Assembly (NCBI GenBank): GCA_026988525.1
Contig: JALSLC010000035.1
Span: forward strand, 1 to 64,000
From: Archaeoglobaceae archaeon
GTDB taxonomy: Archaea > Halobacteriota > Archaeoglobi > Archaeoglobales > Archaeoglobaceae
Direction of reading: 5' to 3'
DNA length: 64,000 nt
Below, piece after piece: positions 151 through 1,979 of the stretch. Under the pieces are notes generated by a model. That model had not been told where the DNA came from. It saw only the letters and a program-made list of their open reading frames with translations, and did not search any database. The first letter of the stretch is position 1. Each line of letters begins with the position of its first letter. The position numbers were made by a program, and so were the translations under genes.

Positions 151-444
151 ATGTATGCGTATAAGGGGGTGAGTAGGGAGGAATGGTTGTTTAGGGGTTT
201 GGCTATTGCTACAATTCTTGCCTTGGTGGGAATGGCTGTGATGCCTATGGCTATTGGAGATATTGGACTAGTATACCTTGCAAATGGAGATGTACTAGCT
301 GGCCTTGGAAGAATCGGCGGTGGTATAGCACTAGATTCTGGAGCAATATTGGCAGTTGGGCTGTCAGGTGTAGAAACACTTAGTGCTTTGGCTCTTGTTG
401 GATTAATTGGAACGGGTATTGCAGCGGGCATTCTTATTGGTTAA
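151..444 (+). CDS. Small, very hydrophobic Gly/Ala/Leu-rich peptide; possible circular-bacteriocin-like precursor
   Basis: The product has 97 residues and no cysteine. Residues 1-13 are polar, residues 14-36 form a membrane or signal-type helix, and the rest is Gly/Ala/Leu/Ile-rich with few charges, ending GILIG. The start ATG has an excellent Shine-Dalgarno site at 137-147. I recognise no named family by sequence. The context is suggestive: a 3-TM protein and a SpoIIM/DUF95 membrane protein follow on the same strand, and DUF95 proteins are a hallmark of circular bacteriocin gene clusters. Size and hydrophobicity (a leader plus a core of about 60 residues) would suit such a precursor, but this is inference. 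It could equally be an uncharacterised two- or three-helix membrane protein. Confidence 0.6.
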   Translation: MYAYKGVSREEWLFRGLAIATILALVGMAVMPMAIGDIGLVYLANGDVLAGLGRIGGGIALDSGAILAVGLSGVETLSALALVGLIGTGIAAGILIG

Positions 445-485
445 TTGAATAAAGTATATTATTTTTTATATGGAGGTATTTAAAG

Positions 486-776
486 ATGGAGAAAGTAGAT
501 CTGGTCTACTACTTTATAACGTCGATAGGATATGCTATTTTTTGGGCATTATTGTTTGCTACGATCGCTAAATCGAACAAAAAAATATTAACTTTAGTAT
601 TAACTTTAATCGGGTTCGCAATTGGTGTCTGTTTTGGAATAGTGCTACTAAGTGCACCACCTATCGGTGCGTCCATTAGCAAAGTAAAACAGTTAATCGT
701 AATGTCATCTATGATAGCAGGGATTAGTGGCATTCTGATTCATAAGGGGCTAGCTCAAAAAAAACCATACATATAG
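486..776 (+). CDS. Small 3-TM membrane protein, possibly the N-terminal part of the SpoIIM protein
   Basis: A 96-residue protein with three predicted membrane helices (about residues 8-27, 34-55 and 68-87) and a Lys-rich end. It is preceded by GGAGGT at 472-477 with good spacing to the ATG. I do not recognise the family. The reading frame closes at TAG 774-776, just after an A8 run (757-764), and the SpoIIM frame is already open there. It may be a separate small protein, such as an immunity or maturation partner of the upstream peptide. Alternatively it is the front of a longer protein joined to SpoIIM by a -1 shift in the A-run. The helix-2 stretch IGFAIGV resembles FGFAIGV in the following SpoIIM segment. 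Confidence 0.55.
   Translation: MEKVDLVYYFITSIGYAIFWALLFATIAKSNKKILTLVLTLIGFAIGVCFGIVLLSAPPIGASISKVKQLIVMSSMIAGISGILIHKGLAQKKPYI
758..764 (+). other. A AAA AAA slippery heptamer at the junction of two membrane ORFs
   Basis: In the frame of the 3-TM protein the codons are CAA AAA AAA CCA, so bases 758-764 form the phase-correct heptamer A_AAA_AAA. A -1 slip here continues without a stop through to TGA at 1309, adding about 182 residues of SpoIIM sequence. Without the slip, translation ends four codons later at 774-776. Homopolymer sequencing error and a true inactivating indel are alternatives. Confidence 0.4.
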
Positions 777-1309
777 ATCATACATTAGTTACATTAGTTG
801 CTATCCCATTTATAATCTTTTGTTTTGGATTTGCGATTGGAGTATTACTCCCAGAATCCTATCCTATTAAAGATAAATTTTATATAATAATAAATTTTTA
901 TACAATATTAACGAATAATTTAAAAGCTACACTAATAGAAATTACTGGAGGGCTAATTATCATTCCAGTAATATACATATTGCTGATAAATGGAATAAAC
1001 CTTGGAATGATTTTCAAGTTTGCATTGGCTAACAATGACATTTCTCGTTTAATTGTTTTAACAATACCACATGGAGTTTTTGAGATCACAGGATTTATCA
1101 TAGCAGGAGCAGCAGGTTTTAAAATCCCCTATGAAATCGTTCGCTATTTAGCTGGTAAAAAGGAGCAAATCCTTACGAAGGAAGACATAAAAGAATATCT
1201 AACTCTCGCTTTAATTTCAATCATCTTAATCGTAATCGCAGCATGGATAGAGGCGAACGTAACGCTTAAGATAGCTAAAGCGATTCTAAATTCAACAAAA
1301 GGTATTTGA
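764..1309 (+). CDS. SpoIIM/DUF95-family membrane protein lacking a canonical start codon
   Basis: The frame open from 746 to the TGA at 1307-1309 encodes a complete-looking SpoIIM (DUF95) core. It has a first helix with FGFAIGVLLPE, a loop, a helix ending in NGINLGM, the family hallmark PHGVFEITGFIIAGAAGFK, and a last helix before a short Lys-rich tail. From 746 the first ATG, GTG or TTG is TTG at 980, inside the protein, and that start would delete the first two helices. The N-terminus must therefore come from a -1 frameshift out of the preceding ORF, from a non-canonical start such as ATA, or the gene is broken. DUF95 proteins occur in circular bacteriocin clusters and widely in archaea. 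The link to the upstream hydrophobic peptide gene is inference. Confidence 0.65.
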   Translation, partial: TIHIDHTLVTLVAIPFIIFCFGFAIGVLLPESYPIKDKFYIIINFYTILTNNLKATLIEITGGLIIIPVIYILLINGINLGMIFKFALANNDISRLIVLTIPHGVFEITGFIIAGAAGFKIPYEIVRYLAGKKEQILTKEDIKEYLTLALISIILIVIAAWIEANVTLKIAKAILNSTKGI

Positions 1310-1357: not shown

Positions 1358-1546
1358 ATGGTAAAAGTAATTGAAGCGATATATGTAGATGGAGTTTTCA
1401 AGCCTCTTGAGAAAGTAGATTTAAAGGAAGGAGAGAAAGTAAGAATAAGAGTAGAAAGGAGTTTGATAGAAATAATAAAGAGTTATCAAGAGAAGTTCAA
1501 GTTAGGAAAAGAGGATATAGAGAAGTTTTTGAAAGAGAGGAGATAA
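1358..1546 (+). CDS. AF2212-like (DUF104) antitoxin of a VapC-type toxin
   Basis: A 62-residue protein whose first half, with IEAIYVDGVFKPLEKVDL and KEGEKVRIRV, is the typical AF2212-like beta-barrel antitoxin core. The C-terminal half (about residues 35-62) is a charged helix of the kind that wraps the toxin. The stop is two bases before the PIN-domain toxin start, the standard antitoxin-toxin order with translational coupling. Such antitoxins usually autoregulate, but I saw no clear palindrome upstream. The family call is secure; which RNA the system targets is unknown. Confidence 0.88.
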   Translation: MVKVIEAIYVDGVFKPLEKVDLKEGEKVRIRVERSLIEIIKSYQEKFKLGKEDIEKFLKERR

Positions 1547-1547
1547 A

Positions 1548-1979
1548 ATGGTAATTATAGACACATCAGTATGGCTCGATCTATTCTTGGAAGATGAGGA
1601 GAGGAAGGAGAGAGCCGAAGAATTGATAAAAGCTGTAAAAACGGTTATTTACGAACCCAAAGTATTTAGAATAGAGTTGGCTGGAACGTTGTCAAGAAGA
1701 TTCAGAAGAGATGACGTTTTAAGTTTCATTGATGAAATATTGACTAAAGTTAGTTTGGTTGATAATCCAGAAGAGTTAGCATTTCAAATAGCCTTAGATA
1801 CCGGATGCAGAGCTGTGGACTCCTACTTCATAGCTACTGCAAAGCTTACTCATTCGATTTTGATAACGAACGACAAAGTTATGGCTAAGAATGCTAAGAA
1901 AGCTGGTATTGAAGCTTATTATCTGATTGAAGAGTTTGATAAAGCGTTGGAAAGAATAAAGAAGTTACAACAGCTTTAA
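1548..1979 (+). CDS. vapC: VapC-family PIN-domain toxin (ribonuclease)
   Basis: A 143-residue PIN protein. The acidic metal-binding residues are visible: D5 in MVIIDTSVWLD, E43 in FRIELAG, D91 in AVDSYF, and D109 in ITNDKVM. All four are intact, so an active Mg-dependent endoribonuclease is expected. VapC toxins of this class usually cut tRNA or rRNA and are neutralised by the upstream partner. The pair sits next to the 3' side of a tRNA-Arg gene, a common location for accessory modules. Its true cellular role, defence or persistence, cannot be read from sequence. Confidence 0.92.
   Translation: MVIIDTSVWLDLFLEDEERKERAEELIKAVKTVIYEPKVFRIELAGTLSRRFRRDDVLSFIDEILTKVSLVDNPEELAFQIALDTGCRAVDSYFIATAKLTHSILITNDKVMAKNAKKAGIEAYYLIEEFDKALERIKKLQQL

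Follow-up and report, generated by a model that had tools for sequence, protein, structure and literature searches.

The window (the whole 64,000-nucleotide stretch of DNA analysed) comes from an Archaeoglobaceae genome and begins where contig C35 ends. At its left end a precursor peptide gene (151-444) is followed by a small ORF whose product has 3 transmembrane (TM) segments, referred to here as ORF2 (486-776), and by a SpoIIM/DUF95 frame (746-1309). A preliminary description of this DNA had reported the three frames in this order, with coordinates that proved correct. They are not chance frames: a paralogue with 58% identity to the peptide adjoins another SpoIIM gene of the same genome (on contig C5), and sister genera have homologues. 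The features of the region are as follows.

1-127, no strand: exact match over 127 bp, in reverse complement, with the beginning of contig C18
Off the window, divergent, with its ATG roughly 168 bp upstream of that of the peptide gene: Yip1-family gene, from the contig overlap and a PF04893 match of 97.2 bits
151-444, plus strand: precursor peptide gene, 97 aa, with a leader (residues ~1-37) and a hydrophobic Gly/Ala-rich core (residues ~38-97)
151-261, plus strand: leader MYAYKGVSREEWLFRGLAIATILALVGMAVMPMAIGD, supported by column conservation and by a leader profile with matches in 21 of 55 genomes of the family
262-441, plus strand: variable core, related to a core from genome G016 (49% over 51 aa)
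486-776, plus strand: ORF2, 96 aa, 3 TM, cationic (+7), candidate dedicated immunity protein
757-764, plus strand: run of eight A at the end of ORF2, where a -1 slip would fuse ORF2 to SpoIIM
767-1309, plus strand: SpoIIM/DUF95 (PF01944), likely start ATA at 767, in a frame open from 746 (187 codons)
767-1063, plus strand: variable N-terminal half of SpoIIM
1064-1306, plus strand: constant C-terminal half of SpoIIM, in which the window copy is 93% identical to the query consensus
1358-1979, plus strand: VapBC-type pair, with an AF2212-like antitoxin (1358-1546) and a PIN toxin (1548-1979)

The 127-bp match at the left edge is an assembler k-mer overlap, and the contig break falls within the promoter region common to the Yip1-family gene and the peptide gene. 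If C35 is joined to C18 through this overlap, the divergent Yip1-family gene lies immediately to the left of base 1, so that the cassette appears to extend beyond the window on this side, one of two possibilities raised from the window itself. A divergent Yip1-family gene also stands beside 21 of the 28 Archaeoglobales peptide genes whose loci include enough upstream sequence.

The SpoIIM frame carries the hallmark motif PHGVFEITGFIIAGAAGF and scores 93.7 bits against Pfam PF01944 (cut-off 26.9), bearing out its initial assignment to SpoIIM/DUF95. Its start is unusual. A start at TTG 980 was rejected: no stop interrupts the frame to the left of it as far as 746, and the SpoIIM ATG of the closest relative (locus L035) aligns with ATA 767 of the window. 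The window gene may thus use a non-AUG codon, carry a mutated start codon, be expressed as an ORF2-SpoIIM fusion by a -1 slip on the run of eight A, or contain a base error. Because its SpoIIM has no standard start codon, this copy of the cassette is possibly impaired. The end of the gene, including its stop codon, lies within a 26-bp tandem duplication (1282-1333, 92%).

The peptide is free of Cys and its gene stands behind a strong ribosome site, AAGGTGGTGATAG. Across copies, conservation of the leader drops just past the residues MP, and the 60-residue core that follows is very hydrophobic (GRAVY 1.49) with a net charge of -2. Archaeoglobales cores are slightly acidic in general (median charge -2), a point that counts against a bacteriocin-like role. 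The preliminary description likened this peptide to the precursors of circular bacteriocins. None of the 31 peptides compared matched those or any other known bacteriocin family in Pfam or NCBIfam, and the AS-48 profile (PF09221) gave nothing over its cut-off in the genomes of 55 relatives. A search of PDB sequences with the peptide profile reached only E 5.1 at best. AF2 models of the peptide, meant to show whether the core has the saposin-like multi-helix fold of circular bacteriocins, were built from alignments of 31 and 5 sequences and were of low confidence (mean pLDDT only 59 and 52); Foldseek returned 0 matches for the first of these.

We collected further copies with 81 residues of the SpoIIM C-terminal half as query and then took the flanking sequence. 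Dozens were found over the family, from 0 to 6 cassettes per genome, and nearly all intact copies have the order leader peptide, small hydrophobic ORF, SpoIIM. The leader profile detects about 43 genes in its 21 family genomes and 1 more in another, sister family within the order. Among 394 genomes of the phylum it gave strong matches in Archaeoglobales only; matches outside the order were weak (E above 1e-4) and fell mostly within long unrelated frames. When named genomes were scanned, a precursor turned up in Thermococcus sp. JdFR-02, which has matches in 18 of 94 Thermococcaceae genomes within cassettes of the same design. The Thermococcaceae precursors have a leader of their own, MWRKALVLGLVLMAIGMVVGGAVE, which has in common with the Archaeoglobales leader a hydrophobic pattern that stops just before the variable core. 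Overall, Archaeoglobales loci contain 36 peptide genes with a leader, of which 32 are followed by SpoIIM, and Thermococcaceae loci contain 34, of which 27 are. The pairing with DUF95 thus recurs in other Archaeoglobales, where a search for it had been suggested, and homologues that never lie near DUF95 genes, which would have spoken against the initial reading, are not what is found. That reading, of a minimal cassette in an archaeon, was an understatement: the locus belongs to a hypervariable, multi-copy system present in two archaeal orders. Mobile carriage was considered and rejected, as viral contigs and plasmids contained no relatives of the SpoIIM.

The cassettes have constant ends and a variable middle. 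Across 27 complete Archaeoglobales cassettes the mean pairwise identity is 54% for the leader, 30% for the core, 23% for ORF2, 29% for the N-terminal half of SpoIIM and 82% for its C-terminal half. The variable parts change together: similarity of the core correlates with that of ORF2 (Mantel r = 0.57) and of the SpoIIM N-terminal half (0.44), and hardly at all with that of the C-terminal half (0.05). In a second test, on 55 cassettes from both orders with near-identical pairs left out, ORF2 was also similar in 19 of 72 core-similar pairs, where label permutation predicts 2.0 (p = 0.0002); for pairs spanning the two orders the figures are 3 of 21 against 0.7 expected (p = 0.03). Co-inheritance of whole cassettes could partly account for both results. 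Two core types occur in both orders together with their ORF2, as exemplified by the cassettes of G004 and G404 (core E 1e-8, ORF2 E 5e-6) and of G062 and G419 (core E 1e-7, ORF2 E 2e-7), and the leaders and SpoIIM C-terminal halves are order-specific.

At the DNA level, three neighbouring cassettes in genome G020 are similar over the 150 bp upstream (86-91% identity), the leader (73-100%) and the SpoIIM C-terminal half (87-95%), and are at or near random identity between leader and C-terminal half, and also downstream. A pair of cassettes from G062 and G020 has the reverse pattern, with 89-91% identity in the block, 73% in the leader and 82% in the C-terminal half. Both patterns are those expected after recombination through the constant ends, and at the level of sequence they indicate that the variable block has been exchanged. 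Between genera, recent gene conversion was rejected as a sufficient explanation of the constant C-terminal half: identity at its four-fold sites is just 37%, so its constancy is due to selection at the protein level. Within some genomes gene conversion is accepted, for example in G020, where four-fold sites are 83-100% identical.

The partner encoded by ORF2 has the properties expected of a protective protein. Its homologues are small and hydrophobic with a median of 3 TM, and 90% of 30 Archaeoglobales copies are cationic; the dedicated immunity proteins of circular bacteriocins are likewise small, cationic and hydrophobic (PMC6131525). In five Thermococcaceae genomes (loci L210, L216, L217, L219 and L221), moreover, ORF2 homologues belonging to families other than that of the window occur in runs that are not directly preceded by any detectable leader peptide. 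L216 has 3 in tandem and L219 has 4 downstream of SpoIIM, and they are mostly 45-90% identical to cassette ORF2 genes elsewhere. Such orphan runs are what immunity genes would show, and ORF2 is probably the cognate immunity protein of its peptide.

Taken together, these observations make it likely that Archaeoglobales and Thermococcales possess a polymorphic bacteriocin-like system, of which the locus represents one copy and in which a leadered peptide with its cognate immunity protein is handled by SpoIIM and Yip1 and diversified by block swapping. In the mechanism we envisage, the precursor would be made with its constant hydrophobic leader and variable Gly/Ala-rich core, and the leader would direct it to a membrane machine of SpoIIM and, probably, Yip1 for export and/or maturation. 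The constant C-terminal half of SpoIIM would supply the shared function of this machine and the variable N-terminal half would fit the particular core. After removal of the leader, the released core would act on the membranes of sensitive relatives, and the cationic ORF2 product, of 2-3 TM, would shield the producer. New specificities would arise when the block of core, ORF2 and SpoIIM N-terminal half is swapped between copies through the leader/promoter and SpoIIM C-terminal ends. We also advance, tentatively, a more specific proposal: that these are modular ribosomal peptide weapons of archaea that mature as head-to-tail rings, and that a specificity block of about 1 kb (core, immunity gene and the substrate half of SpoIIM) is swapped by homologous recombination between the constant leader/promoter and SpoIIM ends, both from genome to genome and across the divide between Archaeoglobales and Thermococcales, with orphan immunity genes kept as banks.

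The cassette resembles the circular bacteriocin systems of the AS-48, circularin/uberolysin and gassericin types in its leadered hydrophobic precursor, its core of about 60 aa and its SpoIIM/DUF95 protein, and further in its small cationic hydrophobic partner, comparable to their dedicated immunity protein, and in the frequent presence of Yip1 (PMC6131525, PMC8659200). Circular bacteriocin clusters have been described as a class defined by their SpoIIM protein (PMC11580447), and Yip1 is recurrent in them (PMC8659200); when a bacterial DUF95 gene was knocked out, mature circular leucocyclicin Q stayed inside the cells (PMC6131525). On the other hand, the archaeal cassettes have neither a profile match to these families nor a conserved ABC ATPase: we found no conserved linked ATPase in the Archaeoglobales cassette loci, and no conserved protease or cyclase in the cassette. 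They also combine a constant leader with a hypervariable core, whereas the bacterial circular families show their greatest diversity in the leader and stronger conservation in the core (PMC8659200), and their SpoIIM is split into variable and constant halves with exchange of blocks. Of the earlier proposal of a circular-bacteriocin-like cassette, the bacteriocin-like character and the link to DUF95 are therefore well supported, and its circular component stays a conjecture: judged from sequence, the cassette works like a bacteriocin cassette, and its membership among circular bacteriocins is not established. Several Thermococcus loci (L225, L215 and L218) do have ABC-2 type transporter genes near the peptide gene, which could provide an export ATPase there or merely share the chromosomal site. 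Leaderless bacteriocin clusters also contain Yip1-type membrane proteins and a hydrophobic peptide (PMC11580447), but the archaeal precursors differ in having a strongly conserved leader and in the presence of SpoIIM.

The design is also familiar from systems of another kind. Polymorphic toxins and the class II bacteriocins and microcins couple a constant delivery part to a variable active part and its cognate immunity protein, and have orphan immunity genes. The archaeal cassettes share with them constant delivery, a variable effector, a co-varying partner and orphan copies of that partner, the predicted immunity gene ORF2. They depart from polymorphic toxins in having a short hydrophobic peptide as effector in place of a large toxin, and in that half of the delivery protein is itself variable.

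Related genes have been read differently in the past. In its passages on these families, Makarova 2014 (PMC4158269) counts arCOG01996, in which the window SpoIIM is placed by description and lineage only, among the families most often met in archaeal dark-matter islands, and suggests a variable membrane-associated defence, and those of Makarova 2015 (PMC5898192) interpret arCOG01996/arCOG02054 cassettes as membrane remodelling with Yip1. What these passages describe resembles the present cassettes: SpoIIM with Yip1 and small, highly diverged membrane proteins, in Archaeoglobi and Thermococci, variable and possibly defensive. They conclude on remodelling or generic defence, and mention neither a leader/core precursor, a cognate immunity partner, a constant/variable mosaic nor orphan immunity genes.

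The remodelling interpretation, transferred to this locus, would make SpoIIM, Yip1 and the small membrane proteins a complex that remodels the cell's own membrane or forms vesicles from it, with the 97-aa protein as a structural subunit. It is a published inference from Yip1 and SpoIIM homology, in the relevant passages of PMC5898192, and the same gene families are present here; yet a housekeeping complex should not come in 0-6 copies with hypervariable cores that co-vary with one partner, runs of orphan ORF2 genes and block exchange, and we regard this explanation as unlikely. The suggestion of membrane-associated defence (in the same passages of PMC4158269), together with the VapBC pairs found directly 3' of SpoIIM in 16 of 91 C-terminal-half copies, the window among them, could instead favour an intracellular conflict system, for toxin-antitoxin or antiviral purposes, whose peptide depolarises the producer's own membrane if ORF2 or SpoIIM fails. 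The conserved leader and the export-type neighbourhood of SpoIIM and Yip1 nevertheless point outward, and the orphan partner runs are more easily read as protection against the peptides of others, so that we consider such a system quite improbable. Signalling by a strain-specific quorum or pheromone peptide with ORF2 as receptor would also suit a leader, a variable core and a co-varying membrane partner, but cores of about 60 residues that are very hydrophobic and Gly-rich look like bacteriocins rather than signals, runs of non-cognate ORF2 are hard to square with receptors, and we hold this to be very improbable indeed.

As far as we have checked, several features are new: the precursor of leader and core, the partner that co-varies with it, the division of SpoIIM into two unlike halves, the mosaics and the runs of orphan ORF2. 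Some of the genes may nevertheless have been flagged by a survey of archaeal antimicrobial peptides published in mBio in 2019. The family looks like a set of previously unrecognised archaeal peptide weapons with a swappable specificity block. To our knowledge, peptide antibiotics from hyperthermophilic archaea are almost unknown. The cassettes offer dozens of concrete candidate pairs of precursor and immunity protein, some of them in relatives of genetically tractable Thermococcales, and should the peptides be rings, antibiotics would be available from organisms whose growth temperature is very high. The cassettes also constitute a natural experiment on the role of SpoIIM/DUF95 in circular bacteriocins: one half of the protein varies with the cargo and the other is near-invariant, which suggests a substrate face and a machine face that can be tested.

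Some further observations concern the surroundings of SpoIIM. The association with VapBC is recurrent: the same VapC type lies directly downstream of SpoIIM in 16 of 91 cassette copies, compared with 20 matches to it in 746 kb of loci; in the window, a tRNA-Arg gene (GCG) follows on the minus strand just past the pair (2008-2081). At L104:4637 and L105:5137 (genomes G006 and G027), a 57-residue fragment 96% identical to the constant half of SpoIIM sits in a 193-aa frame, and VapBC comes next. Further solo fragments of the C-terminal half are scattered over the family and are probably remnants.
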